Shown here piece by piece: positions 14,563 through 61,248 of a stretch of 64,000 bases of DNA. The position numbers and the translations under genes are program-made. How positions within the stretch are numbered: the stretch's first letter is position 1; each line of letters opens with the position of its first letter. Source of the DNA: a virus; the IMG/VR virus record IMGVR_UViG_3300023278_002893, positions 124,001 through 188,000 of that record. One strand, given 5' to 3'. The notes under the pieces were generated by a model. That model saw only the letters and a program-made list of their open reading frames with translations, did no database searches and was not told the DNA's origin.

Positions 14563-15339
14563 CTATCCTATTATAACCTTACCAGATGTGTCTATAATAC
14601 CCAATCGTATTAGATCATCGCGGTAAAGAACTATCAAATTATCTATCTGTGCTTTTATTGAATTAAGTTTGGACCTACCTTCCTCATCACAGAATCCTTT
14701 AATCTCCACAAGACAGGGGATCTTGGATAGGAACCCCTGGGGTAGATAAAAATCTGAGACATAGGTTCTGGTTTTACCATTGTGTATGTATTTAAATCTA
14801 TACTTCTCATACTCCCAAACAATTCCTAGGGAATCTAAATAAACCGCAAAACCATATTCCCATTTGGAACGGAAAACCTCACCTTTATAATCCACCCTTG
14901 TTCCGTAGGGATTGCGGCTGGAAACAGATAGGTTCTTTTTACCGTTGAAAACCACATCCGACATGAGATTTTTTGTTTCTTCCGAATGACCTACACCGTA
15001 AATAGGATTCAATTCTTTGATCCGAGCTTCGGATTTAGTACGTAAAGGTATGCCAAACTCTCTCATCTTCTTGGTCACTGTGTTTTTATGCGCCCCTAGT
15101 ATTTTACCAATCTCCACAGGGTGCATCTTCTTATCCCAGTACATTTCTTTGAGTACGTGTTTATCAATATGAACCTCTTTGCGGGCATTACAGCCCCGCA
15201 TTTTGACTCCTGCGGACGCTAGTCGCGTCTGTACGAGACTTACTGAGCACCCCAGCTGCTCTGCTACCTCTTTTCCAAGAAGGCCGCCCTCATACAATCC
15301 TATGATATCTTCTGTATTGATATCTTTTCTTTGAACCAT
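14563..15339 (-). CDS. PD-(D/E)XK homing endonuclease with tandem HTH and NUMOD3-like motif
   Basis: This 258-residue mobile nuclease has helix-turn-helix segments at about residues 22-45 and 75-98, which would bind DNA. A NUMOD3-like linker (N-P-I-Y-G-V-G-H-S-E-E-T-K) lies at 111-123. The nuclease domain spans about 150-240: R-S-K-W-E at 157-161, then S-D-F-Y-L-P with D196, then V-E-I-K-G with E212 and K214. The D...ExK constellation is the PD-(D/E)XK active site and appears intact. It stands alone between the 544-aa structural gene and the small 105-aa gene, with its own strong promoter. It probably cleaves an uninserted allele of this locus and spreads by homing. Confidence 0.85.
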   Translation of the reverse strand: MVQRKDINTEDIIGLYEGGLLGKEVAEQLGCSVSLVQTRLASAGVKMRGCNARKEVHIDKHVLKEMYWDKKMHPVEIGKILGAHKNTVTKKMREFGIPLRTKSEARIKELNPIYGVGHSEETKNLMSDVVFNGKKNLSVSSRNPYGTRVDYKGEVFRSKWEYGFAVYLDSLGIVWEYEKYRFKYIHNGKTRTYVSDFYLPQGFLSKIPCLVEIKGFCDEEGRSKLNSIKAQIDNLIVLYRDDLIRLGIIDTSGKVIIG

Positions 15340-28496: not shown

Positions 28497-29093
28497 TTAA
28501 ATCTCCTCCTTTTCTGCTAGGAATTCCTCAACAGTTTTTGTATGTTTTCTTAGATTACAAAAGGGACAGGACAAACATAGGTTTTTGTCATCATGAAGTC
28601 CTCCCCGGGAAACGGGAACCATGTACTCTAAATGCCATTTATCTAGTTTCTCCTGGCAATAGTAACACATACCATCCTGTTCTTTAGATAATTTTTCAAT
28701 TATGTCTGGGGAAACCACACCCATCTGATCTTTTAGACTTACATAGTATTTATGCTTGTATAGTCTACGTTTATCAGGATTACTATCCCACCATTCTCTG
28801 TGCTTCTTAGATATTTCAGTCTTGTTAAGTTGATACCATTCGGAAAGATATTTCTTTCTACGGTATCTGTTTTCTTCTTCCCAAGCGGCGCGATATTCCT
28901 TAAATCTTTCTCCATTTTCCTTAAGCCATTCTCGTGATTTTCTGTCCTTGTGTTCTTTATTTCTAATATACCAATTTTTAGAAGATTTAGAAATACAATA
29001 CTTACAATAACTGGTAAGACCATCTTTGTTACGAGAACATTTACTAAACTCATAGTCTCTTTTATCTTCTTTACATTTTCTACAATTCTTCAT
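28497..29093 (-). CDS. free-standing HNH homing endonuclease, probably catalytically impaired
   Basis: I place the start at the ATG at 29093 (198 aa), which overlaps the upstream stop as ATGA; the longer frame upstream only shadows the 135-aa gene. An N-terminal zinc finger (C4, C7, C30, C33) precedes a long charged helical linker. The HNH domain has structural knuckles C143-x2-C146 and C176-x2-C179, N171, and R-K-H at 182-184. Where active relatives have D-H, this protein has E156-Y157. The codon is TAC, one transition from His CAC. The related enzyme at 59442-59954 keeps D-H, so this copy may no longer cut. Confidence 0.82.
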   Translation of the reverse strand: MKNCRKCKEDKRDYEFSKCSRNKDGLTSYCKYCISKSSKNWYIRNKEHKDRKSREWLKENGERFKEYRAAWEEENRYRRKKYLSEWYQLNKTEISKKHREWWDSNPDKRRLYKHKYYVSLKDQMGVVSPDIIEKLSKEQDGMCYYCQEKLDKWHLEYMVPVSRGGLHDDKNLCLSCPFCNLRKHTKTVEEFLAEKEEI

Positions 29094-29497
29094 ATCTGAT
29101 AATACCTTGTGCCCGAAACTATTGTTCTGCCTTGCTCTAAAGCCTCCACCGTCCCAGAAACTGCAGGATCGGAATCGGCACACGCTGTGGAACCTGGAGT
29201 AGGTACAAACCGCCTCCCATGTTGTGTAACTTCTGTCGTTGCGGTACCTATGTAATAAGGGCACCCGTTGTCTGCACAAACCCATCCCAGATAACCTCCT
29301 CCTAGGGAATAGGTGTGCATGCGGCCGCTGGTCTCATGATGATGTACCTTCTCGCCGCCCGGCACTTCAGCATTCTGATTATAGTCTGTTATCTGTGTCG
29401 AGTATGGACAGTATCGCCAAGTCTTAGCACCTCTAACTTTACTTCCCGAAACTACCGGACCCGGCTCAAATATACCCCCCGATGGTAGAATTGTCAT
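29090..29497 (-). CDS. hypothetical Cys/His-containing tip protein, 135 aa
   Basis: A small protein rich in Gly, His and Cys: Y-C-P-Y-S near residue 29, a K-V-H-H-H-E-T cluster near 51, and W-V-C-A-D-N-G-C-P-Y-Y near 72. These residues could bind a metal, which is common in trimeric phage spike tips; this is suggestive only. Its stop codon overlaps the start of the inserted HNH gene by 4 nt, and its start abuts the 137-aa gene. I do not recognise the family. Confidence 0.65.
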   Translation of the reverse strand: MTILPSGGIFEPGPVVSGSKVRGAKTWRYCPYSTQITDYNQNAEVPGGEKVHHHETSGRMHTYSLGGGYLGWVCADNGCPYYIGTATTEVTQHGRRFVPTPGSTACADSDPAVSGTVEALEQGRTIVSGTRYYQI

Positions 29498-30838: not shown

Positions 30839-31129
30839 TTAGGGGGTAGTTCCGCGAGGACAATCATCCGCGCAACCCGTCGCTATTAGTGTTATTTTAT
30901 GTTCAAATACCGTAGGGATTGACGCTGGAATTACTCCAGAACCTACCTCTGTAATATATCCTTTGAAATCCACGCCGCCAAAAGTTAATTCCGTGTAGTT
31001 GCGAGGGGGAGTGACCCCAGGCACCTGTTCTGTAGATACCACCGTAAAAGAAACTGTGGCTAATCCATTAGCCTGATACGTAATTGAAATCGTGGGACAA
31101 TCTATAAACTCGAAAACCTCCGTAGCCAT
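30839..31129 (-). CDS. small beta-rich tail-tip protein, 96 aa
   Basis: The product has a beta pattern (I-T-Y-Q-A-N-G-L-A-T-V-S-F-T-V-V) followed by F-G-G-V-D-F-K-G-Y-I-T-E-V, similar in rhythm to the domain-opening strands of tail hub proteins. It contains three Cys (F-I-D-C-P, G-C-A-D-D-C). Its start codon overlaps the stop of the inserted GIY-YIG gene by one base, which indicates that the nuclease gene was placed precisely between two structural genes. The role in the tail tip is inferred. Confidence 0.62.
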   Translation of the reverse strand: MATEVFEFIDCPTISITYQANGLATVSFTVVSTEQVPGVTPPRNYTELTFGGVDFKGYITEVGSGVIPASIPTVFEHKITLIATGCADDCPRGTTP

Positions 31130-31923
31130 TAGAGTGCCTTCTTCCGTAACCTAGCTGCCGCAGAGTTTATTCGTAGGCAACTACGACACTGTCTTTGATT
31201 GGCTTTACCTGGAGGTACATACGTATTTTCCTTGCTCATCTTATGTCCATGTTTGCAAGTTTCACGAAGTATTCCTCTTTTTACTCTCTCCTGTGCGGAC
31301 CTGGACATTTTTAACAGAGTCTCCTCACTATAAGTTCTACCCAACATAGATTGTCGTATCTTATCTCTGATCTTCGTGGAAACTTGATGTCCTTTAGAAG
31401 ACTCACTCATTTTTTGCTTACTCTTTTCTGCGTGTTTACGCCCCAACCAAAACTGTCTCATCTTCTCTATAGCAGCGGGCGACATCTTCTTACCTAAATT
31501 AATCCGCCTTAGTTTTTCTTTGGTTTCTTCAGAAGTTTTCCTACCTAAATTTACCTGACGCATATACTCTATTTGTTCTGGTGTTCTTTTTCTTCCTTTG
31601 TGGGCCATACCTATTTTTATTTTAGTCTCTTCGGCACAAGGTCCCCCACCCTCACCTCCTTCTTTTATATTATATCCAAGAGGCGTGCGAGAAGAAAGAA
31701 TTTTAATCCAATATTTCTCCTTTTCATCCATTTCCTTTTGACTAAAACATCTATCTATAACAGAGAAACTAAAATTAAACTGCCCGTGTTTGTTTATAGA
31801 ATTTTGCAGAGCTGTACATCCACATTTACCTCGACGGTGGGCAAGTTCCCGCTTACGTAAATTACGAGCCTGTCCTACATACACTTTATCATTAATTTCA
31901 TTCTTCATTAAATAAATAAACAT
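31129..31923 (-). CDS. GIY-YIG homing endonuclease with NUMOD3 repeat array
   Basis: This 264-residue enzyme has an N-terminal GIY-YIG domain: I3-Y4 in F-I-Y-L-M, then V14-Y15-V16-G17, R25, H29, a probable catalytic E69 in E-K-Y-W-I, and G-Y-N-I. All expected residues are present, so it looks active. From about residue 97 to 215 there is an array of NUMOD3-type DNA-binding repeats (G-R-K-T-S-E-E-T-K-E-K-L-R and variants). A C-terminal C-K-H-G-H and C-R-S-C pair suggests a zinc finger. It overlaps its downstream neighbour by one base, typical of a free-standing intergenic homing gene. Confidence 0.9.
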   Translation of the reverse strand: MFIYLMKNEINDKVYVGQARNLRKRELAHRRGKCGCTALQNSINKHGQFNFSFSVIDRCFSQKEMDEKEKYWIKILSSRTPLGYNIKEGGEGGGPCAEETKIKIGMAHKGRKRTPEQIEYMRQVNLGRKTSEETKEKLRRINLGKKMSPAAIEKMRQFWLGRKHAEKSKQKMSESSKGHQVSTKIRDKIRQSMLGRTYSEETLLKMSRSAQERVKRGILRETCKHGHKMSKENTYVPPGKANQRQCRSCLRINSAAARLRKKAL

Positions 31924-36364: not shown

Positions 36365-39300
36365 CTAGTTTCCTCTGCCTGCCTGTGCGAGGGAGAGAGC
36401 CTGTGATGCCTGGGTAAGTGCAGTAGATGCTCTCTGACCGATCTCGCCCAGAAGCTGTTTATCTGACTTACGTGCGGTTTCTGCTGTTGTAATCTCTGTG
36501 TTAATCTGTCGGACTTCGGCCTCAATACCTTGCTTATTGTCCCCGACGGCAGTCGAGAGGTCGGTGATCTGCTCGGCAAGGACAGAGACATTTTCAGTTG
36601 CCGCGGTGGCTACGGTTGTAGCGGTAGCTGCGGCAGATGTCGCGGATGATGATGCCTCCGTGGCAAGAGTGGCGCTCTCGCTGGCAGCCTGGGAGGTCGT
36701 AGTTGCGAGTTCTATTGTCGTACTGAACGTAGAAACCTCGAGCGTGAGAGCGTCTAGATTACTAGTCGTAAGGGTTTGTTTTGATTCCAGTGTGGATACG
36801 TCCTCCTCCAAAGCTAGAATTGATTCATTGAGTGGTCCAGAAGTATCGGTCAGCCCCTCGACCGCATCCACCCTAACACCCAAAGCGGTAATGTCAGCCC
36901 CCGCAGCTCCTGTCGCAGCCTCAGTGGCAGCTACAGCCAGTTCATCGATGTTAGAAACTGTAACTGCAGGCTCGCCATCAATGGTGACTGTGAGGGTCTC
37001 ACCCAAAGCTTCGGTAATATCAGAACCTATGGATGCGATATCGGAACTGAAGGATTCAGGAAGGGTCACGCCCTGGCTTGCCAACCCACCTATAACCTCA
37101 TTGAGCGACGCTATGGAGTCATTCAGAGCACTTAGTGCCTCCGAGGAACCCCCATCGCCCGTACCACCCCTAGTAACTCTGTCTGCTGGATCATCTCTAG
37201 TACCCGGCGCAGAGCCATCTTCCTTTCTAATAACATTGGAGGGACTAGCAGCGTCATCACCAAACCTGGCGCTAGCATTCGCCTCAGCAGCCAGGTTATT
37301 ATTCGTAAGTCCTACCATGGGATTTATTCGGCGCATGCCTGCATTTAGATTTACGGTGCCGGTTCCTGCAAGCTCTGTGCTGGAGAGAACACCACTTTCC
37401 CTGCCTCGATAAACATGCTCGCCGCTATCGATACCCTTTTGAATAATCCTCATGGCACTTATCTGCTTTTCACCGGCAGTTAGTTCGGATCCGCGATCTG
37501 CTGCCTTTAACTGACCTGTGTAAGTACTTTCGCCAGGCCTGCCACCAGCGAGCTGTGCAAATGTTCCAGCGGTTGGGGGTTTTGTGCCGAAACCGCCCTG
37601 CATAGATAATCCTAAAGTCGGTCCAGTAGATTTGGTACCAGGACCTGCTACCATAGCCGCCAACTCTTGCTCATTCCACTTGTTTTTGATAGTCTCAGGA
37701 CCTGAGGTTGCAACTCCTCCGGGCGCGGGAATCGCGGACGCGCCCATTCTTATACCGGAGGTGGGATCCGCAGCCTTGTTAGTTAGCGTCTCAAGTGCGG
37801 ATAATTGTTCTCTTTGTAATCCCACAGAGGTGGTTAGGATTGCATTCGTAGGGATCATCCCAGTAGCCATATCCTCTACTCCCGCCTGGCGCGCTGCCTT
37901 CTTTGACAGGTCTTGCGCTTCTTGAGTAATGGAACCTGCAAACTTGGAGAGACCTTCCAGAGAAGGAAGTCCCTTGAAGAAAAGTTTATCATCGCGACCC
38001 TTCTTCGTCGCCTGTTCGGAGGTTGCCAATTCCTCACCAAGGATATCAAAATACTTCTGAGCTTTAGCCTTCAAGTCATCACTCTGTCCCGGATCAAACA
38101 TTACATCTGCAAGGGTTGATCGGACACGCTCCGCTTTCTGTTGCTGACTTCGTAGAGCCGTAGTTTCTATGCTCTGCTTCTGCTGAATGACAGCTTCCTT
38201 CTCATCAAAGTCAACGTCTTTCAGTGCTTGCTTCTTGGCGCGCATATCGGCCAACGTCGTTCGTCCACCACTACCAAATTGTTTCTCTATATCTCGTCTC
38301 TTGTTTTCGAAAGAAGTTCGGAAACCAGCTTGACCCACTCGGGCCATTGGACCATCCAAATCAGAATCTATCTTATTAATGATTTGAGAATCTGCTTTTT
38401 CGAAATCCCTAACCATGTCATTTAGAGTGGTAGCGAAGTTTATAGCAGCGTCCGCCAATCTAATAGCGGGAATATCTGCCTGCAACTTATTATTGCTGTC
38501 CTCTAGGGCCTTGATAGCCTTAGCTTGAGCTTCAAGATGGGATGCCCGTACTGAGTTCTCCCACTGAATGGACTTGGCCTTCGCCGCGTCAAGATCCTTG
38601 GAAGCCTTTAGCTGCTTCGCTGCTTTGGCCTTCGACATATCTTGGGGGCTGGATGATTTAATCATCTCCGTGGTAAGACCGGAGGCGGCCTTGCCATCAT
38701 TCTCGAAGACCTCCGCCATTCTGTCCGCTAGATTTGACTGTAAATCCTTCTGACTCCAGAACTGCTGGGTAGGTTGACCATCGGCGGTGTCGGACAGAGG
38801 TACGTCTATCATTCCTCTACCCTCAAACTGCTGCATACCATTCATAAGTGCTACTATATTCTTCATCTGGGGATGGGAAGGAGCGTTAGCACCCGCTCTT
38901 AAATTACCATCGGCATCTGGAATTATGTTAAGAACCTTCTTGAAGACATCGTTCATCGCGCCGCCCCCAAGTACTTCTCCAAACGCGCTGGTCTTCTCTT
39001 TAAAGGACTTCTTGGACATAACGGAGGCAAAGGCTTCGGCCCTATCACCTTCCGGCAAGGACTGGATGTAGGTAAGTTCGTGCAGGGCTTCGAGCATGGA
39101 GTTTTGGACACTCAGCTGGCGACCCCCAATATCGGTAAAGTCGTCAGCTAATTTATTCATACCCCTAATCATCTCAAGTTGGCCTGCTGAGGTTTTCTCT
39201 CCAGAGCCAGCTAGACGCTTCTTTTGCTCGGAGGTCATGGAGTCCCCGGCTTTGGCCATGTCCGTAACTGAAGTTTCGAAGTCAGACATCTGCTTCTCTA

Positions 39301-42300
39301 TCTTATTGAGTGTGTCCAGATCTCGATTTCTTTTATCTGAGGTTCCTGCAGTCCCTCGAAGAAGTTTAGCAAACTCAGGCACTGCGACAGCTAGCTTCTC
39401 CAAACCACTGAGTTCTTTAAAGGACTTGCCGAGATCTATGCTGGGGACAGCGCCCATACCCTTCATCGCGCCGCCAGAGCCTGTTATAAATTTGTTCTTG
39501 TTAGCTTCGGCCCGTTCGTAGTCGGCAGCGGCCGTAGCTGCGTCTTTTAAGGTAATGTTAAGCTTCTCTTGCATCTTCTGGTAATTACCCAGAACAGAGA
39601 GGAAGAAACCCTCCTTCTGTAGTGTCGTTGCAAGCTGCAGAACTTCCTGAGTAACTACCTTTAGTGCCTTCCCGGAAGATGCTTGTCTCTTGTAAGTACC
39701 CTCAACATCCGTAAGTAGGTCTTCTCCGTACTCCTTGGTGAGGGCATTGAATTCGGACTGAATGTCTGCCAACCTCTGCATGTCCTCTGGAAGAGAACGC
39801 ATTACTCTCTGCTCCACAGACAGTTCTTTCTCACTGGCGGGTCCCAAGTTAGGCATCCCTCCCGTAGGAATACGAACTCCCGCCATAGCACCCGAGTACT
39901 GCATGGTCATAATCTTCTTAGTGTGTGCCTCAGCGGCATCCACTTCCTTCTTGGTCCAGGTCATGAAGTGGTGTGCGACATCTGCCTTTTCCAACTCCTT
40001 GACGACACCCTCCAATTCGGTGCCCATAACACTGGAGAGAGCCCCGGTGCTGGTTCTAAATTGCCAAATAGCCTTCTCGGTGCCTTCTTCAAGCGAGGAG
40101 AAAAGTGTCGTGACTCCTCCCGTTTTCAGGTCTGCAGCTGCTTGGGAAATAACGGCCATCTGACCCGCCTTAACTGGTGCTCCAGCACTGCCCGTTACCG
40201 CGCCTGAGCCGCTTGTAGCACCTATTCCTCTAGACAGGAATGCATTTGCTATAAGTCCAGAAGACTGAGTGTTCTGATAATCCAGAACCCCACCCAGGCC
40301 GGACTGCTTACCCATGAACTGGGTCATTACTGAACTACCAGTTGCCCCTCGACCGAAGGCACCCGCTTCCGCGGCATCGTTAATTTGACTTTGGAGTTGT
40401 GGGGTAATACTCCCCATAGCACTTTCCAAATCACCGAACTCAGGAATAGATTCAAAAACCCGTTTCATCTCATTGGCGGTGGCCAGAACTGCCTCGCGCT
40501 CAGCGCCTTCCTGCGCCACCAATTCATTCATTCTGGACTGGTTAACAAGGCTGTACTCACCAGACTTAGCCTGTTCGTTCATTATCTTCGAAAGTTTTTG
40601 AATTTCCTTTCTTGTGTCACGAAGCTTACCCATACCGCTTTGATCTTCGTTCGCGCCAGCCATGCCTCCAGTTGCGAAATTTGCAAACTTAGCGAAGCCC
40701 TGCTTCATGTTATCCAGTATTCCCTCCGCAGTGGTTAGCTCCTCTGCGAATTTAGATATAACATCTACCTTGAAGGCAGTGGTTATAGCGTTCTGGGCAT
40801 CTAATGCTGATACAGTAAGGGATTTGAAATTAGAATCTATTCCCAGAATGTAGTCGCCAGAATCTGAAATACCCTGGACCTTGGTAGGGTCTAGTGAAGC
40901 CATGCTATTACCTATGTCAGCCATCATGTTGTTGTACGTCTGGGCCGCGGTGGCGGCTCCCTTGAAGCGACCTTCACCTAATGCTGTACTCATAGCGGCA
41001 TCGTCCGCCATGGCTTCCTGAGCTTTCCCTACCTTAATAAAGGACAAAGCTAAACGATCAGCATTAACAGATTGGCTTCTTAGAGTCGACGCGGCGTCCT
41101 CGCTCCTCCCCATAACCTCCTCTACGGACTGCTCGTAATCTTTGGCTGATTGGGAGGCTTTCTGGTATGCCATATATGCACCGCCAAGAGCGGCGACAAC
41201 GGTCAGGATCGCGGCGGCGCCGACTGAGGTAACCATTGCGGCGCTGAAACCTTTCTGAGCGACGGTAGCGCCTAAGAATCCCTTTTCAGCCAACTTTGTT
41301 ACAAGCGACGTTCCGAGAAGACTATTCCCCAAACCATCAACTGCTCTTCTGGTGAGATGGGCAGTACTAGCGAATTTAGTCATCTCCTCAGTGCGGCCAG
41401 TCCCAGCACCTGCGGCGTCCCAGCCAGTCTTAGCGCTTGATTTGATTCCCGAGAGCAACTTAAAGGTACTGCTTCTACCCCCGCCAGTAGTACTCACCTC
41501 GTTACCTGAGAAAACATCCATAGTATCTGCGATCAGGTCAGCAGCCTTGTGGAAAGCCAATCCCATCGCAACAGCACCCATGGTGCTCTTCATAATCATG
41601 GGGTGTAGATCACCGACGAGTCCAACTAGTTTGGAGACACTCTGAATTGCACCAGTTGCCAATCCGAGACCGGTCTTACCAAACTCTAGTACAAGACCCT
41701 TAACACTTTCCTTGAGAACCGTAACATTCTTGGTGAATGTTTGCATCGCCAATCGGTTCTTTCTCATAGCAAAGCCCTGCGAGTTAGCAGCGTCAGCGCT
41801 AGCAAGCAAGGCTTCGTCGAAGTTATTCATCAAGACGATGAATGAGTTATAGTGTCTAATACCCGCCATTGCTTGAGCTAGATTGACTTGCTGTGCGCGA
41901 GTCATTCCGTCCCAAGAACCGGCTAATTCCTTGAGTATGCCCATAGCGGGTTTGAAATCACCGCCCACCTCCATACTACCAACGCCCATCTTGCCAAGTT
42001 CCTTCTGCGCAGTAGGCCGTCTCATCGCGCGGAACATGAACTTGGTGCTGGTTGCAACTTCCTTACCAGATTGTCGAGTTACAGCACCAATTGCAGTAAC
42101 CACTCCCATGAAGTCTTCAAAACCCACACCCGCCACTTGGGCGGCAGCACCGGAACGCTTAACCGCGTCTGCTAGATCCTTAGCTGTAATAGCGTGCCTG
42201 GCTGCAACAGCTGCCCAGGCATCAACAAACTCAGCCGACCCTGACACAGAGTCCCCGAAAACTTTATGAGCTGCTGTGAGAGCTTCCGTAGCTTCTACGG

Positions 42301-45300
42301 AAGTCAGAGTGGTAACATTAACAGCGAGCATGGTAGCGCGTGTGCGCTCCATGATCTTATTCATCTTCAAACCCTGCTGACCATAGACAACCATACCGTC
42401 TAATACATCTTCAATGCCAATTCCAAACTCGGATGCAAAATCAGATGCGGAATCCTGCATACGTTCGAAGTTGGTAACCGAGGTGTCCATCACCTTCTTC
42501 AACGCAGTGACCTTAGTCTCAACTTCGGTAATAACAGTGACCATTTGTCGAAAAGCTCTGATAGTACCATAAACGATACCGGTAGCAAATCCCCACTGAA
42601 CCACTCTTCTCAGAGAGTTTCTCATATGTCCAGTAAATTCTTTAGCGGCACTACCTGCGTTAGTAAGAGACACTACGTACTCATCACCGAACCTACGAGC
42701 AGACATTGTCAGTTTTTCAAGAACCGTGTTGCTCTCCTGATCTACAATCGGAAAGGACCCCTCTTTGGAAATTCTATTACCACCAATAGGCTTGAATCCC
42801 TGCTTGTGCATGGCGGTTAGCTGCTTTCCCCACTGCTCAGCTTGCGCTTCAATGTCTCTTCTCTGCTTATCATAAGACGCCTTCAGATCCATCCCGCCTG
42901 TTGCAGCAGCTTGAATGGGGCGGGAATCAGCAGCAGCGCGTGCGTGCTCTTCCGTAGTTCTGGGAACGGTACCTAACTTCTCATATGCTTTGTGTGCCTT
43001 ATTTGCCATGTCGGCCATTGCTTTGAGAATGTTTACTTGTTCGGAGTCGGGGCCACTGATTGTACCCATGAGAGATGACATTGCTTTTAGAATCGAGGAA
43101 ACCTTACCTAAGTTCTCTACAAGTGTCTCGGGGGACTGAGCAAGTTCATCCCAAATCTGAGTCCAAACCTTGGTCTTACTAATGCCAGCCTCAATCTGAT
43201 CCTTGGCGCTCATCAAGGTTTCACCCAGGCCTCCAAATTTTTCTTTGCTCTCACCACGACCCGCACTCTGCTTGATGATATCAGACCATGCAGATTTTCC
43301 AGGCTGAATTCGTAATTCGTCCGCGGCGGTGGGGAGCATTGCGCCAGAACGGCCCATAGCAATACCTGTCTGTTTGAATGTACCAGGTAGTTTAGTCTGC
43401 CCTAAAACCGCATACATTTGCTGAATAGTGTTGTTGAAGTGCTCTAGTAGCTCGGCGAATTCGGGGGTATCTGCCGCTCCTGAATCCCGAACCTGCTTTA
43501 TCATCTCTTGAAGACCCTTACCTTTGTTGATATACATCTGAAGCTCGGCAGCTTGGAATTCCTGCATCGCCGAGAGATACGCCTCGTTTCCCCGACGACC
43601 ACCACCACCTGCATCTTCGCCGACATCCTTCAATCCTTTCTTATATCCGAAAGCGGTTTCCTGGTAAATCTTCTTCATGTCTGCCATTCGGGCAGGATCT
43701 ACCCCACCCTCCTGTCCCATCTCACTGAGCATCAATCGCATAGACTCGGCGGGGACTTCCATTCCCGAAATGTTCTCGCCGGGGAATGAGATAGGACCCG
43801 CAGTGCGGGTACGTCCACCTTTTCGCTCACCGGCGACCAGCTTGAGATTATTACGTGCCTCCTTCAATGCCTGGTCAAATAATATCAACTCATCACTGAG
43901 CTTCCTATTGAGTTCTGCTCCGGGGTATCCTCCGGCAGAACGTATTTTATCCTGCGCCTCACCCCGGACCGTCTGTCCGTGGGTTTTAGTCACAGATGCT
44001 ATCATACCGCCAGCCTGTTTAAGAATATTTCCAGAAATACCACCAACCGCCTCATCTAATTCAGAAAACATCTTCATTAGAGCTTTTTGTACTTCGTCGG
44101 GGATGTCTCCGAAGATCTCCATCCACTTGGATGGGTTAGTAAGATGGGCTAGCAGCTCTTCAGCGACCATCTCGAAGTATTTCGTACCCTGTGCCTGTAT
44201 GGCTTCATCCGCAGTTTTACCTGCAAACTCTTTCAAATTACCTATACCAGAAACCTCAGCACCGCCACCACTCTCCCTTCGGATCTTACTCAACAGCTTT
44301 AATTTATCAGCGTTACGCCCTACCATTGTTAGTTGATTTGCCGCCTTTAGTATTAACGGCGCCGCCTGGCCTATAGCGGTACCACCATCGACGAGGGAGG
44401 CAGATATCTCATTGATACCAGATCTAACAGTCTTAGCACTCTTATGTATATTCTCATGAGCCAGTGTAGCACCCATATTGGATATAGCTTGGGTAACGAA
44501 CTCTATACCTTTAGCAGTGGTCGGAATTTCCCCAGCGTCTATACGCCCAAGCATCTTCAGAGCCATTTCCAGAGGCTTCATTCGGGAGGTTGCGCCGACG
44601 CTGATCTTTCCCTCGCCGGGGGCAGTTCCTGGTTTCTCACGATAAACACCCGCAACCTTCTTAGGATCTAAACCACTAGCAATAAAAAGCTCGTCGCTAA
44701 CTACACCGTACATTTGCTTGATATTAGCAATCCATGCAGAAAGTTTATCTACTATCTCTTTACCCACAGCAATAGGTTTACCCGGATCTTCTTCCAGATC
44801 CACCCCACCCTTCAGCGCCTGGGCGGTGTCGCTAAACAGCGTGTTGAGAATCTTAGAAGCGCGATCCTCCAGAGGCAGCCCCTCCATCTCTCGGGTGCCC
44901 TTCCTTCTAGACAATGCATAGGATTCAGGAATAATCTCACGAGGATCTAATCCCTCTATCTTGCCTTGATTCTGGGCAGTTTTGGTAGTTCTTTGTCTGA
45001 CGTACTCTGCAGCCGATGACGGGCTAGCGCCTTTATCTATCATGGCCTGGCGGGCATTCTCCTCCAGCATTTCCTGCATGCGTTTGAGCTGACCTCTAAG
45101 ATCCATCTTATCCAACAACTGCTGAATGACCTTCTCGTAATTACCCTTGTCTAATCCTTGACCCTCTTTGAGAACTCCCTCCTCAAGAGCCGTCTGTGTA
45201 AGTGCGGCTGGATCCTGAGACCTAAGCATGGGCTCCATCTCGGCAAACATTTGCTTATTATAACGTCCCATTTTACCAAAAGTATCACCACCCCCAGCAT

Positions 45301-48300
45301 CCATTCCTGCTATGATCCTAGCCATTCCGGAGGGTCCGGATGACAATGACTTTACAAGATCTTGTGGTCCCGCCATGTTGCCCGAACCGCTCTTAGCAGC
45401 TAAAGACTCATTAATGTTCATCATAATGTAATCGGAAGCTGTTGCAAATGCGTCTCCCGACATCTTAGCACCACCTACAACTGCGTTATAGAAAATGTTG
45501 AACACGTCCGAAAGAAGTCCTACAGAAAGCTTACCGCCGGTAAGTGCCAAGGTCTGCTCTCTTTCCGTTTCTGCGCTATCAGGCATGGCCACTGCGGCTT
45601 TATATGCATCCGGGCGCTTGGCGATTGCGCCGAATGCCTCGTTAGCGCCTTCCAAGCTAGAATAATCTTGATCTGCAGTTTCTATACTACCTATAATATT
45701 ACGCATAGCGGACTGCATGGAGAAACCGGTCTGTAAATAAATCTCCTTAGCTGTCTTCATGGCGTGTGCTGACTCTATCGTCATTGCCCCAAACAGCTTA
45801 GTGGCGTCACCGTCGAAGTCTAGGTTCATGGTTGCCGAATGAAAAGCATTAGTAAATTCATAAATAGCGCGGTTGGCTATTCCAAGATTCTTCCTAGCTT
45901 TGTCTGCGGCAGGACCCAGTCCGTTATTGGCTTTTATAACCTTCATAGAAGATGCCCGTAGGTCCTCAAAAGGTTTTTTTACCTTCTGAGCATCTTCGGT
46001 AGAGGACATTGCGAAGGTACCCGGAACACCCATCTTACCTTCAGGTAGTCGCCCCGTCTTATCCTCCATTATTTTAACAATCTGCTGGCTCGCGCCTCCT
46101 GTAACAGGATCGCGAAGATGCATACCTCTTTCCATAACCTTGTCAAGATCCTTCCCGCTTAGCTTCTGTCCCATAGCCTTAGCTTGTTTCTTAGCCAGAG
46201 ACCGCATCGTTGCGTAGTCTTTCTTGCTGAGAAGAATACCGTCTCGGGGGAGGACGTCCTTAGTCACCTGGAGAGACTTCATTCTATCCAGAGCCTCAAG
46301 CGCATCACTCGTATCCGCACCTGCCTTTCCTAAAGCCTTAAGATGTCTTTCCGCTCTCTTTATCTCGGAAGACATATCTACTGCATACTCAATAGCTTTA
46401 GAGTACTGCGCGTTGGCGAGACCCGAGCCACGAGTCTGTGCTACCTTTCGAGACTCTTCAAATGCAGGAGTTCCTGAGGTTCTACCGAATCCCTGAGAGG
46501 TGACCTCTTGTAGGAGCTGTCCTTTTACCTGATCCTGTCTTTCCCATTGTTTTTCCGTAAAAGCAGGGTCTTCGGCAGAAGCTGTGCCTACACGCTTAAG
46601 TGCGGCTTCTACAAGATCTAAACTCTTAAACAAACCACCTGTGCTTGCTATTGATCCGGTTTTTTTATTCTCCGCCCTGAAACCAAGCACGTCGCGCATT
46701 CTATTAATCTGTGCAACATCTCCCTTACCCCCACCCACATAATCTTCAGCGGACTGTCGATTAGTTTCTATCCTACCACCACGTCCAAAGTATTGTATAC
46801 CAGATTTCATCCCAAGACCTTTCATAGCCTTAACGAGAGGCATAAAAGTGTTCTTGAACTCCTTAACCATAGACTTGCCTTCGTCTGTATCCGGTCCCGC
46901 TTTCTTAATATCAGATATCTGCTGGTTCATTCTCTTAGTGAGGAATTCTGCAGATTCCCTATGCGCAGCCTCACTGTCTCTGGGAGTCAATTCTCCCCGG
47001 CCGCCTTTAATGTTCATGCTCTGCTGTCTAAGTTTTTCCAAAAGCCTGGTCAGTTTACTGGGATCCGCCAAACCTTCTTCGGTAGTACGCACATCCCGCT
47101 GGCCTACAGCCTTTCCCATTCCGGGGATAAAGAGCTCCTCTTGCCCTCCCCCTTTTTTAGGAAGCATCATACTAAAAGCCTGCTTCTGAAACTCAGGATC
47201 TGCTAGAGTACCTTTCATCATATCAGGTTCGGCGAATCCTCCCGGCATTGGTGAAAAATCTTCAGGTTTCATCTTCTTCAGGTTAGAAACGACGCTGGCA
47301 CCAGCGCCGCTCATACTAAGAAGCATCTTGCGATAATCATCCTGCGCGGAGATTACATGTTTACTACTTTTGTTCTGGGCTGCCATTGCAAAGGATAGGG
47401 TTTCCGCTCTCTGCTCAAGAGCTTTCATTGCCACGGGGTCTATGAATCTATCACGCTCGATTGACTCTCCGGTCTGACCTTCCTTCTCGATTCGATTCCA
47501 CGCTAACCTACCTGTAAGTACCTTACCGATTCCACCCGCAGCCAGAGCACCTGAAGTTTTCTCGAATGCTGATTCGGGGTCAAGTCCTAACTCCTTACCC
47601 ACCGCGCGGGCGGCGGGTGCCATCTCCAACCCGGGAGTTGCTTTCATAGCACCGGTTATCTTATCAAATATTGTTTGCGCAGCTACCTTACCTCCAGAAG
47701 CCATGCTGGTAGAAATCATTGCGATGATGTCTTGTAGGTCAGCACGTCTAATGAAACCTTCTGCGCTGGTAATTACGTCAGTGTCTTTACCTGCGCCGAA
47801 CTTTGCCATAGACTCGTCAGATACAACCTTAGCAATACTTTTACTTCCTGCAAAAGTTGAGAACTTAGAACCGGTAGTCGCTGCATTGAATTCATCGAAG
47901 ACGATCTCGAACATCTTCCTACCATTTCTAAAGACCTGCTTTAATTCCTTGATCTCCGCATAAGACCCCTTAAGGTTAAACTCAATGTCTTTACCCGCAG
48001 CATCTATGCCTAATTTCTGACCCTTCTGTAATCCCATTCCTACGACTAGGTCTTCCGAAAGATTTGAAACCGTTTCTTTATCTTCCTTGTACATACCCGC
48101 ACGTTTAGCTGCGGAAGCTCTCATCAAGATCTGATCTTCGTGAAGCTCCGGTATGTGTTTTTGAGACACTGCTGCAGTTTTAAAATTCAATGACGACGCA
48201 GAAATCTGACCCTGCTTCAATAGCTGCTTCATTAGAGGGGACACAATGTCAGGCATCTCACCGCCTTCCACCTTAGCAAATCCCTTCATAAAGTTAGTAC

Positions 48301-50029
48301 GCATCTGCTTACTAAACCCAGCACCACCTGCCAAGAGTTCGGCTACGGGCCTGGTCTGGACTTTACCTTGGACAGCCCCTCCCTCCGACAGACCACCAAG
48401 AGACTTAGCCATGTCAGCTGCGGCCTCCTCGGTGAGTCCAATCATGGAAACCACGTCGGCACCTGCGGCAACAAACTTACCGGAAGCGCGTGTCATGTCG
48501 TGGAGAATAGCAGCTATCTCACCGAGCTTACCAGCATCGGTGTCATGTTTCATTATCTTCTCGGTCTGTTTCTTGGAGGGGGTCCATTGAAGTTGGGACT
48601 CTCCCCCCTTTATAAACTGACCCATAGATTGATGTTTCTCATATCTAGACGCATCCCCGCCAATTCTCTTTCTAATCATCGAACGCGTCATCTGAACAGC
48701 AGTTTCTTGGGACCTGCCTGCTCTTCTGGCAATTACTTTAAGTTCACCCTCAACACCCTCCAGGGCGTGAGTAATACTATCAAGCCTTGTTACGTTGTTT
48801 CCCTGAATCTTAAGAACACTACCTATTATCTTCTCTGAACCCGCACCTGTCTTAATGGTAGGGACGGAACCAGGAGCCACGCGTACATCCCCAGGAGAGG
48901 GCAACCCCAGAGCAGCCTGAAGATTTTTACCTTTGAAACTAGGTAAAGCTGTTTCTATATCCTTACCTAAACGAACAAGAGCTTTGGATACCGTCTTAGC
49001 AGTCTGTTCTGCCTGTGCTTGGTAGTCAACTCGACCCTGCGTCCCACGGGGAGGTGAAGTTCTAGCCTCCTCCCTCTTAACGGTAGCCTGCTTAGTTCCC
49101 CTGCTGTCTATTTTAGGAACACCAGTAACAGACCGGGTCTGGGGAGTAACCAAACTACTATCTCTCCGGCCTCCCGTTTCACTACGAGTAGTTCTATCTC
49201 TTTGGATATTTCTGTTGGTGGCGCCCGCAGCGGGTTGGTTTTTGATAGTCTGTCTGGGGTCTCTCTGCGCTTTTCCAGCTCCAGAACCAACAATGCCGCC
49301 AGTCAGCGCGGCTCCCTGCTTATTTATCTTAGAGATAAATCGGGATCGCGCTGCGGCGGCAGTTCTTTCAGCGGCGGTCGAAGCTTCAATCGCCTTTATA
49401 TTATCTAAAGTAGCTTTTCTTTTGCGCTCCTCCAGTCTTACATTCTGCTCCAGGATACGACTAACTTTAGCCTGGGCACGTTGTAATTTCCTGGAAGTCT
49501 CAGTAGATTTATCACCTGCTTTTATTTCACGCGCAAGAGACTGGGCCCTCTTCTCAGCGGCTACGGCTGCTTTCTCGATACGCGCAACCCGTCCTGCTAA
49601 ACCTGATTCTATTTTACCTAGAGTCTTGTCACTCTTAGAAGAGGACGCCTGTGCGGCAGTTCCAGCGCGCGATGGTGTAGATTTTACAGGTGTGGAAACT
49701 TGTGTCTTAGACTGGCGCTGCGACTTATTAAGTGCAGCAGTTAGAGAAGATAAAGCAGATGTCATTTCTTTGGTAGACGCTTCAAAGCTCTTGAATTCAG
49801 ACCTAAGTACTTTACGTACATCCTTGGCAAAGTCTGCGCCCTTGACGCCTGTAGCCCCAGCTGCAGCTTTAACTGATCCAGAACTAGGACCGATAGCTCC
49901 AAGATTAACACCTTTAAGTGCGTTCTGGGTAGCGGACTTAACGGCTTTCTTTATTTGACCTTCTAGACCTTTGATACTAGTCTGATCAAGTTCTAGATCT
50001 ATACCAATCTTAAACTTTTCTTCTACCAA
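36365..50029 (-). CDS. giant tape measure protein fused to a single-chain RNA polymerase and a zincin metallopeptidase (4554 aa)
   Basis: The start is TTG with GGAGG about 10 nt upstream. Order from N to C: charged coiled-coil/low-complexity region (about 1-330); RNA polymerase two-barrel core (about 620-1520); HExxH metallopeptidase region (about 1800-1970); TP901-type tape measure domain (about 2465-2835); one strongly hydrophobic segment (about 2930-2955); long helical coiled coils; and a Ser/Thr/Ala-rich helical tail (about 4290-4554). Polymerase residues: E631-D632, K722, K730, R1306, D1404-F-D-G-D1408. Zincin residues: H1858-E-x-x-H1862, with candidate third ligands E1953 or E1957/E1958. 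It lies between the assembly-chaperone-position genes and the hub gene, as tape measures do. The inferred role is to set tail length and to enter the cell with the DNA, carrying an RNA polymerase. Giant virion proteins with RNA polymerase domains are known in crAss-like phages; the fusion to a TP901 tape measure is the unusual part. Confidence 0.88.
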   Translation of the reverse strand: MVEEKFKIGIDLELDQTSIKGLEGQIKKAVKSATQNALKGVNLGAIGPSSGSVKAAAGATGVKGADFAKDVRKVLRSEFKSFEASTKEMTSALSSLTAALNKSQRQSKTQVSTPVKSTPSRAGTAAQASSSKSDKTLGKIESGLAGRVARIEKAAVAAEKRAQSLAREIKAGDKSTETSRKLQRAQAKVSRILEQNVRLEERKRKATLDNIKAIEASTAAERTAAAARSRFISKINKQGAALTGGIVGSGAGKAQRDPRQTIKNQPAAGATNRNIQRDRTTRSETGGRRDSSLVTPQTRSVTGVPKIDSRGTKQATVKREEARTSPPRGTQGRVDYQAQAEQTAKTVSKALVRLGKDIETALPSFKGKNLQAALGLPSPGDVRVAPGSVPTIKTGAGSEKIIGSVLKIQGNNVTRLDSITHALEGVEGELKVIARRAGRSQETAVQMTRSMIRKRIGGDASRYEKHQSMGQFIKGGESQLQWTPSKKQTEKIMKHDTDAGKLGEIAAILHDMTRASGKFVAAGADVVSMIGLTEEAAADMAKSLGGLSEGGAVQGKVQTRPVAELLAGGAGFSKQMRTNFMKGFAKVEGGEMPDIVSPLMKQLLKQGQISASSLNFKTAAVSQKHIPELHEDQILMRASAAKRAGMYKEDKETVSNLSEDLVVGMGLQKGQKLGIDAAGKDIEFNLKGSYAEIKELKQVFRNGRKMFEIVFDEFNAATTGSKFSTFAGSKSIAKVVSDESMAKFGAGKDTDVITSAEGFIRRADLQDIIAMISTSMASGGKVAAQTIFDKITGAMKATPGLEMAPAARAVGKELGLDPESAFEKTSGALAAGGIGKVLTGRLAWNRIEKEGQTGESIERDRFIDPVAMKALEQRAETLSFAMAAQNKSSKHVISAQDDYRKMLLSMSGAGASVVSNLKKMKPEDFSPMPGGFAEPDMMKGTLADPEFQKQAFSMMLPKKGGGQEELFIPGMGKAVGQRDVRTTEEGLADPSKLTRLLEKLRQQSMNIKGGRGELTPRDSEAAHRESAEFLTKRMNQQISDIKKAGPDTDEGKSMVKEFKNTFMPLVKAMKGLGMKSGIQYFGRGGRIETNRQSAEDYVGGGKGDVAQINRMRDVLGFRAENKKTGSIASTGGLFKSLDLVEAALKRVGTASAEDPAFTEKQWERQDQVKGQLLQEVTSQGFGRTSGTPAFEESRKVAQTRGSGLANAQYSKAIEYAVDMSSEIKRAERHLKALGKAGADTSDALEALDRMKSLQVTKDVLPRDGILLSKKDYATMRSLAKKQAKAMGQKLSGKDLDKVMERGMHLRDPVTGGASQQIVKIMEDKTGRLPEGKMGVPGTFAMSSTEDAQKVKKPFEDLRASSMKVIKANNGLGPAADKARKNLGIANRAIYEFTNAFHSATMNLDFDGDATKLFGAMTIESAHAMKTAKEIYLQTGFSMQSAMRNIIGSIETADQDYSSLEGANEAFGAIAKRPDAYKAAVAMPDSAETEREQTLALTGGKLSVGLLSDVFNIFYNAVVGGAKMSGDAFATASDYIMMNINESLAAKSGSGNMAGPQDLVKSLSSGPSGMARIIAGMDAGGGDTFGKMGRYNKQMFAEMEPMLRSQDPAALTQTALEEGVLKEGQGLDKGNYEKVIQQLLDKMDLRGQLKRMQEMLEENARQAMIDKGASPSSAAEYVRQRTTKTAQNQGKIEGLDPREIIPESYALSRRKGTREMEGLPLEDRASKILNTLFSDTAQALKGGVDLEEDPGKPIAVGKEIVDKLSAWIANIKQMYGVVSDELFIASGLDPKKVAGVYREKPGTAPGEGKISVGATSRMKPLEMALKMLGRIDAGEIPTTAKGIEFVTQAISNMGATLAHENIHKSAKTVRSGINEISASLVDGGTAIGQAAPLILKAANQLTMVGRNADKLKLLSKIRRESGGGAEVSGIGNLKEFAGKTADEAIQAQGTKYFEMVAEELLAHLTNPSKWMEIFGDIPDEVQKALMKMFSELDEAVGGISGNILKQAGGMIASVTKTHGQTVRGEAQDKIRSAGGYPGAELNRKLSDELILFDQALKEARNNLKLVAGERKGGRTRTAGPISFPGENISGMEVPAESMRLMLSEMGQEGGVDPARMADMKKIYQETAFGYKKGLKDVGEDAGGGGRRGNEAYLSAMQEFQAAELQMYINKGKGLQEMIKQVRDSGAADTPEFAELLEHFNNTIQQMYAVLGQTKLPGTFKQTGIAMGRSGAMLPTAADELRIQPGKSAWSDIIKQSAGRGESKEKFGGLGETLMSAKDQIEAGISKTKVWTQIWDELAQSPETLVENLGKVSSILKAMSSLMGTISGPDSEQVNILKAMADMANKAHKAYEKLGTVPRTTEEHARAAADSRPIQAAATGGMDLKASYDKQRRDIEAQAEQWGKQLTAMHKQGFKPIGGNRISKEGSFPIVDQESNTVLEKLTMSARRFGDEYVVSLTNAGSAAKEFTGHMRNSLRRVVQWGFATGIVYGTIRAFRQMVTVITEVETKVTALKKVMDTSVTNFERMQDSASDFASEFGIGIEDVLDGMVVYGQQGLKMNKIMERTRATMLAVNVTTLTSVEATEALTAAHKVFGDSVSGSAEFVDAWAAVAARHAITAKDLADAVKRSGAAAQVAGVGFEDFMGVVTAIGAVTRQSGKEVATSTKFMFRAMRRPTAQKELGKMGVGSMEVGGDFKPAMGILKELAGSWDGMTRAQQVNLAQAMAGIRHYNSFIVLMNNFDEALLASADAANSQGFAMRKNRLAMQTFTKNVTVLKESVKGLVLEFGKTGLGLATGAIQSVSKLVGLVGDLHPMIMKSTMGAVAMGLAFHKAADLIADTMDVFSGNEVSTTGGGRSSTFKLLSGIKSSAKTGWDAAGAGTGRTEEMTKFASTAHLTRRAVDGLGNSLLGTSLVTKLAEKGFLGATVAQKGFSAAMVTSVGAAAILTVVAALGGAYMAYQKASQSAKDYEQSVEEVMGRSEDAASTLRSQSVNADRLALSFIKVGKAQEAMADDAAMSTALGEGRFKGAATAAQTYNNMMADIGNSMASLDPTKVQGISDSGDYILGIDSNFKSLTVSALDAQNAITTAFKVDVISKFAEELTTAEGILDNMKQGFAKFANFATGGMAGANEDQSGMGKLRDTRKEIQKLSKIMNEQAKSGEYSLVNQSRMNELVAQEGAEREAVLATANEMKRVFESIPEFGDLESAMGSITPQLQSQINDAAEAGAFGRGATGSSVMTQFMGKQSGLGGVLDYQNTQSSGLIANAFLSRGIGATSGSGAVTGSAGAPVKAGQMAVISQAAADLKTGGVTTLFSSLEEGTEKAIWQFRTSTGALSSVMGTELEGVVKELEKADVAHHFMTWTKKEVDAAEAHTKKIMTMQYSGAMAGVRIPTGGMPNLGPASEKELSVEQRVMRSLPEDMQRLADIQSEFNALTKEYGEDLLTDVEGTYKRQASSGKALKVVTQEVLQLATTLQKEGFFLSVLGNYQKMQEKLNITLKDAATAAADYERAEANKNKFITGSGGAMKGMGAVPSIDLGKSFKELSGLEKLAVAVPEFAKLLRGTAGTSDKRNRDLDTLNKIEKQMSDFETSVTDMAKAGDSMTSEQKKRLAGSGEKTSAGQLEMIRGMNKLADDFTDIGGRQLSVQNSMLEALHELTYIQSLPEGDRAEAFASVMSKKSFKEKTSAFGEVLGGGAMNDVFKKVLNIIPDADGNLRAGANAPSHPQMKNIVALMNGMQQFEGRGMIDVPLSDTADGQPTQQFWSQKDLQSNLADRMAEVFENDGKAASGLTTEMIKSSSPQDMSKAKAAKQLKASKDLDAAKAKSIQWENSVRASHLEAQAKAIKALEDSNNKLQADIPAIRLADAAINFATTLNDMVRDFEKADSQIINKIDSDLDGPMARVGQAGFRTSFENKRRDIEKQFGSGGRTTLADMRAKKQALKDVDFDEKEAVIQQKQSIETTALRSQQQKAERVRSTLADVMFDPGQSDDLKAKAQKYFDILGEELATSEQATKKGRDDKLFFKGLPSLEGLSKFAGSITQEAQDLSKKAARQAGVEDMATGMIPTNAILTTSVGLQREQLSALETLTNKAADPTSGIRMGASAIPAPGGVATSGPETIKNKWNEQELAAMVAGPGTKSTGPTLGLSMQGGFGTKPPTAGTFAQLAGGRPGESTYTGQLKAADRGSELTAGEKQISAMRIIQKGIDSGEHVYRGRESGVLSSTELAGTGTVNLNAGMRRINPMVGLTNNNLAAEANASARFGDDAASPSNVIRKEDGSAPGTRDDPADRVTRGGTGDGGSSEALSALNDSIASLNEVIGGLASQGVTLPESFSSDIASIGSDITEALGETLTVTIDGEPAVTVSNIDELAVAATEAATGAAGADITALGVRVDAVEGLTDTSGPLNESILALEEDVSTLESKQTLTTSNLDALTLEVSTFSTTIELATTTSQAASESATLATEASSSATSAAATATTVATAATENVSVLAEQITDLSTAVGDNKQGIEAEVRQINTEITTAETARKSDKQLLGEIGQRASTALTQASQALSLAQAGRGN
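41525..42637 (-). other. TP901-type tape measure domain
   Basis: Residues about 2465-2835 show the classic pattern of the TP901/PhageMin tail tape measure family. A basic amphipathic start (R-N-S-L-R-R-V-V-Q-W-G-F) is followed by a hydrophobic helix and V-E-T-K-V-T-A-L-K-K-V. Then come M-Q-D-S-A-S-D-F-A-S-E-F-G, Ala-rich helices with V-A-A-R-H-A-I-T, A-D-A-V-K-R-S-G-A-A-A and A-T-S-T-K-F-M-F-R-A-M, and finally the R-H-Y-N-S-F and K-N-R-L-A-M-Q-T-F-T-K helices. This domain fixes the identity of the long protein as a tape measure. Confidence 0.85.
44120..44632 (-). other. zincin (HExxH) metallopeptidase region inside the tape measure protein
   Basis: A-H1858-E-N-I-H1862 is an exact HExxH zinc-binding motif at the end of a helix. 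About 95 residues later comes F-E1953-M-V-A-E1957-E1958-L-L-A-H, a helix of the kind that supplies the third zinc ligand in gluzincin-type phage polyvalent-protein peptidases. The preceding G-K-I-S-V-G-A-T-S strand is also usual for such domains. It lies between the polymerase core and the tape measure domain, so it could cut the polyprotein and release the polymerase, or open host cell envelope proteins. Both ideas are inference. Confidence 0.7.
45470..48172 (-). other. RNA polymerase two-barrel catalytic core inside the tape measure protein
   Basis: H-E-D-Q-I-L-M at residues 630-636 matches the Y/F-E-D-(A/S)-I-L motif of bacterial beta. G-S-K722-F-S-T-F-A-G-S-K730 matches beta G-D-K-M-A-G-R-H-G-N-K with the same 8-residue lysine spacing. 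It is followed by S-D-E-S-M, T-D-V-I-T and R-R-A-D-L, like D-M-P, V-D-I-V-L and S-R-M-N-I. Further on, L-R1306-D-P-V-T-G resembles the NTP-contacting N-R-A-P-T, and M-N-L-D-F-D-G-D at 1401-1408 is the beta'-type N-A-D-F-D-G-D metal-binding loop. A K1500-L-S-V-G motif follows. The order beta-barrel then beta'-barrel on one chain is that of YonO-like and crAss-like phage polymerases. The polymerase assignment rests on motif order and spacing. Confidence 0.85.
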
Positions 50030-59441: not shown

Positions 59442-59954
59442 TTAAATTTCAGACATAAATTCTTCTGCGGTCTTAGTGTGTTTCCTAAGATTACAACTAG
59501 GACACGCAAGGCATAAATTAGACCAAGTGTGCTTACCTCCCCTAGAAAGGGGCAGTTTGTGATCTAAATGAGAATTTTCTTCAATAGAAACACTGCAATA
59601 AAAACACATCTTATCTTGTACACACGAGAGTAGTTCTATCATGCCACTAAAAATAAATCCTAAATTATTATCCTTAAGTGCTCGTCTTTTTTGGGCATAT
59701 TCTCTAAATTTAAGTTTATTAGATTTCTGATATTCAGATTGTTTTGATGGATATTTATCCCTATAAGATTCACTATATTCTCTGTGCATTATTTTCTTTC
59801 TCTCTATGTTGCACTTATAATACTTATTATTTCTAAGTTTATCTATCTCCGATACACACTCTTTACACTGAGATTTAAATCCATTTTTAGAAGAACTATT
59901 TTTATAGAATTCATTCTTTCTCTTTAGCACCTTGCATGTACTACATATTTTCAT
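59442..59954 (-). CDS. intact HNH homing endonuclease, 170 aa
   Basis: An N-terminal zinc finger (C4, C7, C30, C33) leads into a basic helical linker and a complete HNH domain. Zinc knuckles are C117-x2-C120 and C151-x2-C154, the catalytic D131-H132 lies in L-D-H-K-L-P-L-S-R-G-G, and N146 and H159 complete the site. It is a close architectural relative of the 198-aa protein at 28497-29093, which has lost the D-H. It lies between the capsid gene and the decoration triplet. Its ribosome binding site AGAGG (59960-59964) is inside a long stem of its leader, so translation is probably restrained. Confidence 0.88.
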   Translation of the reverse strand: MKICSTCKVLKRKNEFYKNSSSKNGFKSQCKECVSEIDKLRNNKYYKCNIERKKIMHREYSESYRDKYPSKQSEYQKSNKLKFREYAQKRRALKDNNLGFIFSGMIELLSCVQDKMCFYCSVSIEENSHLDHKLPLSRGGKHTWSNLCLACPSCNLRKHTKTAEEFMSEI

Positions 59955-60180: not shown

Positions 60181-61248
60181 TTAACTTCGGTCAATAACAC
60201 CAAGCTGGGTCATTCGAGAGTCGAGAAGGGCGAACCCTACCTCTTCCCATCCGAAGAATCCCTGCTTCTGCTGTCGAAGCAAGCTCGGGTCATCGTGCGC
60301 CTCGAACTCCTTTCGTACAGGCATAACAAGCGAATCATTAACGGAGAGATCAAATCCATAGACCTGGGTCTCACCTGCAGTGGTAACGTTTCCGTTAGCA
60401 TCCACGGTGTTAATGTTCGTTGGGGTGTAATCATTGAAGTCGCCGGAACCATCTACCTGGAAGATACCATAAGAAGCGCCGTTCTGGTTGATGTTGAATC
60501 GACCAGTAGCACCAAGCTGGAATACCTCATGTAGATTTACGTTCCAGATTCGACCCATACCAGCAGCCGTGAAAATCTCTCGGCGGGTGATCGGATCAAC
60601 CTGAGTATCGGTCCACTCACGAATGTCAGCGGCGTCCTCAGGGGAAATGTATAGGTCAGTAAGGGAGCGTCGAACTCTCTTCATTCCTACCATCATCAGG
60701 TTCAGGAGCTCCTTCGAGAGGAACTTCTCACCGGTAGATCCGGAGGGAACCTGGAAAACAGGAGCATTGCGAGCGCCAAGGAGACCCTGGCCTGCGAAGT
60801 CAGTAGTAGCACCGGGGACAATTACTCGCCATCCGGACTCCTCTTCGTAGTCTGCAATAGATCGTGCTGCGTTTCGAGCTGCTCGCTCGGGGATATCAAT
60901 GCGTGAGTCGCGTGCGTAGGTTACCTTCCAATCCGCAGATACTGCGATGGAGAAAGTAGGTACGTACACTTCCTCACCAACACCCTCAACGAAGTTCTGT
61001 GCGATATATCCGAGTCCCGGAAGTACGAATACCGGAACGTCGAAGTCGTCAGCAACTGGATATACAGCCTGTGCGCCTGGCGCCAATCGCTCAACAGCAA
61101 AGAGCTGTCGCATGATGGACGCGTCTCGAATCTCCTGGAGAATCGGGACAGTAAGAGCCTGCGCAAAGGCTTTGTATGCTTCAACACCCTCGGGAGTGTC
61201 GATAGCTGCAGTTGCTTGGAACATTTCCTGTAGCTTTGTTCTATCCAT
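60181..61248 (-). CDS. major capsid protein (HK97 fold), 355 aa
   Basis: It sits directly after the scaffold and decoration genes. The sequence fits an HK97-type shell protein: a helical N-arm (residues 1-45), an E-loop-like stretch (Y-P-V-A-D-D-F-D-V-P-V-F), a long spine helix region (I-P-E-R-A-A-R-N-A-A-R-S-I-A-D-Y-E-E-E) and the characteristic D-L-Y-I-S-P-E-D-A-A-D-I-R-E-W. It ends with the common beta pattern near G-F-F-G-W-E-E-V-G-F-A-L-L-D. The N-terminus reads M-D-R-T-K-L-Q-E-M-F, with no large leader, so scaffolding appears to be a separate protein. It forms the icosahedral shell. Confidence 0.85.
   Translation of the reverse strand: MDRTKLQEMFQATAAIDTPEGVEAYKAFAQALTVPILQEIRDASIMRQLFAVERLAPGAQAVYPVADDFDVPVFVLPGLGYIAQNFVEGVGEEVYVPTFSIAVSADWKVTYARDSRIDIPERAARNAARSIADYEEESGWRVIVPGATTDFAGQGLLGARNAPVFQVPSGSTGEKFLSKELLNLMMVGMKRVRRSLTDLYISPEDAADIREWTDTQVDPITRREIFTAAGMGRIWNVNLHEVFQLGATGRFNINQNGASYGIFQVDGSGDFNDYTPTNINTVDANGNVTTAGETQVYGFDLSVNDSLVMPVRKEFEAHDDPSLLRQQKQGFFGWEEVGFALLDSRMTQLGVIDRS

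Follow-up and report, generated by a model that had tools for sequence, protein, structure and literature searches.

The closest described system is gp96 of the Thermus phage P23-45, a virion RNA polymerase (RNAP) that is fused to the tail tape, carries a DFDGD motif and has been crystallised (Chaban et al. 2024, PMC10770324). This published tape-fused enzyme is a DNA-dependent RNAP that is active in vitro; full-length gp96 is present in virions and is associated with the pre-early genes, among them the gene of a second, non-virion RNAP, gp64 (PMC10770324). Tape-fused RNAPs of the gp96 type are carried by the Thermus phages P23-45, P74-26, G20c and TSP4 (PMC10770324), and a literature search that left aside subscription journals and preprints returned a report of such a fusion for P23-45 only. 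A single-chain two-barrel RNAP, gp66, is also found in the virion of phage phi14:2 (PMC10770324).

The present analysis concerns a 64,000-nucleotide stretch of viral DNA (hereafter the window), which corresponds to bases 124001-188000 of a 297,725-base (~298-kb) virus record and is matched identically by an IMG/VR contig. A sequence-only reading of the window had placed a two-barrel RNAP inside its TP901-type tape measure protein (TMP) and had considered that no fusion of an RNAP to a tape measure was described. The earlier report of gp96 (Chaban et al. 2024, PMC10770324) invalidates this claim of novelty and provides a direct precedent for the proposed function. What the present case adds is a tape-fused RNAP from a phage lineage far removed from the Thermus phages, in which neither the polymerase nor the tape measure is that of gp96.

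The tape measure protein and its genomic surroundings

TMP is encoded on the minus strand (36365..50029) by a reading frame that is open across 4554 codons, starts with TTG downstream of a GGAGG sequence and begins with a region, LVEEKFKIGI, that is kept in homologues. Its assignment as a tape measure is firm on the strength of profile matches: a TP901/PhageMin_Tail core at aa 2438-2973 (41111..42718, minus strand) is recognized by phrog_4211 (2.9e-79) and, above the cut-off, by PF10145 (5.4e-25). The RNAP domain, delimited at aa ~545-1650 (45080..48397, minus strand) by profile-profile homology to a free-standing RNAP of the same phage and by Foldseek matches to RNAP chains, occupies the N-terminal third of the very same reading frame. 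The span initially proposed for this domain, 45470-48172 (aa 620-1520), does fall inside the RNAP region, but the homologous region turns out to be somewhat wider.

The presence of a major head protein gene at 60181..61248 (minus strand; phrog_2522, 1e-12) places TMP in a minus-strand structural module. Genes for HNH/endonuclease VII and homing-type endonucleases are dispersed in this module (14563-15339, 28497-29285, 31129-31923 and 59442-59954, all on the minus strand). Furthermore, two very large reading frames are found on the minus strand downstream of the tail genes, at 6845-13471 (2208 aa) and 17104-20436 (1110 aa); neither has a match in PHROG, and the former has none in Pfam.

Conservation of the catalytic residues

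All eight catalytic residues originally named in TMP are correctly positioned. On the minus strand, they comprise the beta-type acidic pair E631-D632 (48134..48139), the beta-type lysines K722 and K730 within a G-x-K-x5-G-x-K context (47840..47866), the predicted beta'-type nucleotide-contacting arginine R1306 of an R-D-P sequence ending at P1308 (46106..46114), and the aspartates D1404, D1406 and D1408 in MNLDFDGD, of which NLDFDGD (aa 1402-1408, 45806..45826) corresponds to the beta'-type metal-binding loop. Scans of viral contigs yielded seven other TMPs of the same family (L004, L005, L012, L013, L015, L025 and L026, n=8 with that of the window), which share 25-49% identity with the window across the RNAP region; one of them, L005, lies in a genome of 295,848 bases. 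When checked one by one, E631, D632, G720, K722, G728, K730, R1306, P1308, N1402, L1403, D1404, D1406 and D1408 are identical in 8/8 sequences, and TMPs retrieved by their core alone all carry the NLDFDGD motif too. The eight named residues are thus all kept in the homologues, where their absence would have spoken against a polymerase.

This conservation is not a general feature of the alignment, in which only 71/1156 columns and 19/308 charged positions are invariant. The probability that all eight named residues belong to the invariant set is ~1e-10 in a hypergeometric test, or 4e-11 among charged residues, so that chance is excluded for them. That the catalytic residues are invariant while ~94% of the columns vary implies, moreover, a selection acting on the active site.

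Each of these motifs has a counterpart in the second, free-standing RNAP encoded by this phage: E631-D632 is in register with its FEDQ motif, the two lysines pair with GFK-x5-GNKG, and the metal-binding loop pairs with an NLDFDGD. In the joint alignment, ERFPCLG lies opposite the context of R1306, for which most homologues read HRYPTTGG. Further along the chain, aa 1486-1550 (45380..45574, minus strand) align with TGP...NSVFxQKHG of the free-standing enzyme and constitute a candidate bridge-helix/trigger region, for which AF2 predicts a helix at low confidence. The distances between motifs are larger in TMP: R1306 and D1404 are 98 aa apart versus 39 in the free-standing RNAP and 38 in gp96, owing to an insert of ~60 aa, and the connector between K730 and R1306 reaches 576 aa versus 384 aa in the free-standing RNAP.

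Homology of the fused domain to the free-standing polymerase

Searches with DFDGD and PF00623 uncovered the free-standing RNAP, a frame of 1057 aa located outside the window (G000:C1, ~26.7-29.9 kb). It scores above the Pfam cut-offs for RNA_pol_Rpb2_6 and, further along the chain, for RNA_pol_Rpb1_2, matches bacterial RpoB chains at 1e-5 in a plain phmmer search, and displays FEDQ, GFK-x5-GNKG, ERFP and NLDFDGD in the same order and context as the fused domain. This second enzyme of the genome supplies the decisive evidence for the polymerase nature of the fused domain. Further phage contigs encode relatives of this free-standing RNAP; one of these contigs is the 295,848-base genome in which a fused copy also occurs, and hence both full-size genomes hold one fused and one free RNAP. 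The gene lies in a plus-strand run with genes for an SF2 helicase, a COOH-NH2 ligase and a glutamine amidotransferase (L045, G000:C1 ~32.1-38.9 kb, also outside the window), a set which is annotated in the crAss-like phage phi14:2 as well. No repeated promoter-like motif exceeding shuffled controls was detected in the 80 kb around it.

When the eight fused copies were compared with eight free RNAPs (L027 and L029-L035) by profile-profile alignment, the beta halves matched with a probability of 99.6% and an E-value of 1.8e-23 over 389 columns, with the E-D pair and both lysines in register and K722/K730 facing K376/K384 of the free RNAP. The C-terminal, beta' halves matched at 89.5% and 2e-6, from NLDFDGD through QKHG, while reversed-sequence decoys gave values of 0.15-0.51. 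Furthermore, an HMM built from the fused copies only retrieved 8/8 free RNAPs, with E-values, computed on a small set, of 1.7e-16 to 7.5e-31, and 0/4 control tape measures. In Pfam, Rpb1_2 is the only family matched by more than one fused copy, weakly (4/8, best 0.046); matches of single members, such as that to LEDGF, were weak and were taken as noise. Support for the beta' half thus consists of the 2e-6 alignment, the motifs and this weak Pfam signal. The fused and free RNAPs of the phage are paralogues.

The use of profiles was required because single-sequence searches with the domain gave no match in PDB, Pfam or phage genomes; likewise, no relatives were found in prokaryotes in a set of 84,980 species represented by one genome each. 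The empty single-sequence searches, along with a poor AF2 model computed from three rows (pLDDT 38, discarded), are what could be advanced in favor of motifs arisen by chance in an unrelated coiled tape measure. Yet this explanation is effectively refuted by the profile homology to RNAPs with clean decoys and by the invariance of the named residues, and we regard it as barely credible.

The profile alignment also shows that the beta' half of the fused domain has strongly diverged from that of the free RNAP. This divergence, together with the 60-aa insert that separates R1306 from the metal loop, would be compatible with an RNAP fold retained in a non-catalytic form and serving the tail as a structural element or as a guide for the DNA, but the strict invariance of the catalytic residues in such a variable alignment argues against it and makes a loss of catalysis improbable.

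Structure prediction

An AF2 model built from a 15-row alignment reached a mean pLDDT of 65.5, with values mostly of 70-87 in the beta-type region. Since 7/15 rows are free RNAPs, this model does not count as evidence separate from the homology claim. Foldseek returned 351 PDB matches at E <=0.001, the best 50 of which are all second-largest (beta/Rpb2-type) RNAP chains, the top one at 1.1e-8 over ~350 columns; among the matches listed, the fold support concerns the beta side only. In a viral library, the model matched RNAPs and also A0A8S5SD80, annotated as 'minor tail protein' of Siphoviridae sp. ctnpt50 (1076 columns, E 2.6e-6, BFVD). Judging from this predicted structure, the ctnpt50 protein may possibly represent a further lineage of tape-fused RNAPs.

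The assignment of aa ~545-1650 as a two-barrel RNAP domain is well supported by conservation among homologues, by profile homology to the RNAP of the same genome and by the fold comparison. The central proposal of a two-barrel RNAP within a TP901-type tape measure is hence upheld, with the profile values of 1.8e-23 and 2e-6 for the two halves.

Proposed function

The tape measure of this phage embeds an RNAP domain that is homologous to RNAPs and has kept an intact catalytic signature, and the genome encodes a second RNAP. Our preferred reading, to which we assign a probability of about 0.75, is that TMP combines a tape measure with a complete single-chain two-barrel RNAP, which would be carried in the tail and would transcribe the first phage genes before the free-standing RNAP takes over. 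We infer by analogy that the fused enzyme is packaged, ejected and catalytically active, and likewise which promoters it uses and when it acts relative to the free enzyme. By analogy with P23-45 gp96, TMP would be packed in the tail tube and would leave it before or together with the DNA, passing into the host envelope as the DNA enters. It is there that the RNAP domain would transcribe the earliest phage genes, the gene of the free-standing RNAP probably being one of them, and the latter enzyme would subsequently transcribe later genes.

An HExxH motif is present directly after the RNAP domain (aa 1858-1862, 44444..44458, minus strand), followed by a conserved EE ~100 aa downstream. It is kept in 7/7 family TMPs that cover the site and is absent from four related isolate TMPs. 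On the basis of these motifs, the segment is probably a zinc metallopeptidase that could free the RNAP or assist in opening the envelope. One may envisage that this peptidase, or another protease, cuts the active RNAP loose at assembly or upon entry, leaving it to act in the cytoplasm as a separate enzyme. The position and conservation of the motif, as well as the joint lack of RNAP and HExxH in related isolate TMPs, speak for such a release; on the other hand, P23-45 virions hold the RNAP as part of full-length gp96 (PMC10770324) and the window TMP contains no known cleavage site, and we consider this scenario unlikely.

A last alternative concerns the product, which could be something other than early mRNA if the domain were, for instance, a primase or an RNA-templated enzyme akin to QDE-1, itself a two-barrel enzyme using RNA as template (PMC10770324). 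The nearest relative of the domain is nevertheless a free RNAP whose motifs resemble those of bacterial beta, and the tape-fused gp96 is DNA-dependent, which leaves very little room for this alternative.

Comparison with known systems

Several phages share one of the two components of TMP. YonO of SPbeta is, like the fused domain, a single-chain two-barrel phage RNAP, but it is encoded by a gene of its own, while SPbeta-like phages possess a tape-measure core homologous to that of TMP. In the crAss-like phage phi14:2, gp66 is, as annotated, devoid of a tape-measure fusion. No significant HMM match was obtained with YonO or with phi14:2 gp66, the latter compared with both the fused and the free family (E >25 where any match to these two proteins was listed), and a comparison with P23-45 gp64 gave no homology either. 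As regards the tape measure, the TMPs of Bacillus phages vB_BcoS-136, Stahl and FADO and of Lactococcus phage AM9 have a homologous core (1.7e-49 to 1.9e-60), which starts at residue ~280-640 versus 2438 in the window TMP; these four proteins lack a match to the RNAP as well as the DxDGD and HExxH motifs.

The resemblance to gp96 of P23-45 lies in the architecture. Both place a single-chain two-barrel RNAP with a DFDGD loop towards the N-terminus of a giant tape measure, both genomes encode a second, non-fused RNAP, and a metallopeptidase is annotated in gp96 itself. However, a motif scan of gp96 revealed neither of the E-D and K-x7-K signatures of the window TMP, and gp96 has no HExxH; the P23-45 genome is 84 kb versus ~298 kb here, and the host and connector length differ too. 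While gp96 is clampless and flat with a short connector, the K730-R1306 connector of TMP is long, in a model of modest pLDDT (65.5). Since this connector also exceeds that of the free RNAP (576 versus 384 aa), the argument made for gp96 from its thin enzyme may not transfer to TMP.

Direct homology between the fused domain and gp96 was considered and rejected, as hhalign gave an E-value of 0.09 and aligned DFDGD alone. The free RNAP profile matched gp96 at 89.6% and 1.9e-6 in the DFDGD-bearing region, and the beta'-half profile matched the gp96 structures 8H2N/8H2M weakly (0.06-0.1), so that fused RNAP, free RNAP and gp96 appear to belong to one superfamily. Profiles of the TMP core, the HExxH segment, the linker and the C-terminal part gave no match with gp96. 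At the level of these comparisons, the fused RNAP of the window is closely related to the free RNAP of its own phage, gp96 being by far the more distant of the two.

The simplest reading of these alignments is that the RNAP and HExxH modules joined a TP901-type tape measure in the window lineage, separately from the Thermus event, although one ancient fusion common to both lineages may have been followed by extreme divergence or replacement. We somewhat favor at least two independent origins of the fusion, one in Thermus siphophages and another in the ~300-kb lineage. Each fused copy would then be a duplicate of the phage's own free RNAP that was inserted into a tape measure of unrelated descent, which would make entry-coupled transcription a recurrent strategy. 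The design no longer looks like a lone Thermus oddity, and a polymerase riding on the molecule that leads the DNA is probably a recurrent way to start an infection. Furthermore, the coexistence of related fused and free enzymes in one genome provides a second system for the passage of a polymerase through the tail tube. Finally, the window RNAP, which does not have the short connector of gp96, keeps catalytic signatures like those of bacterial beta, and may help to place phage RNAPs in the evolution of RNAPs.
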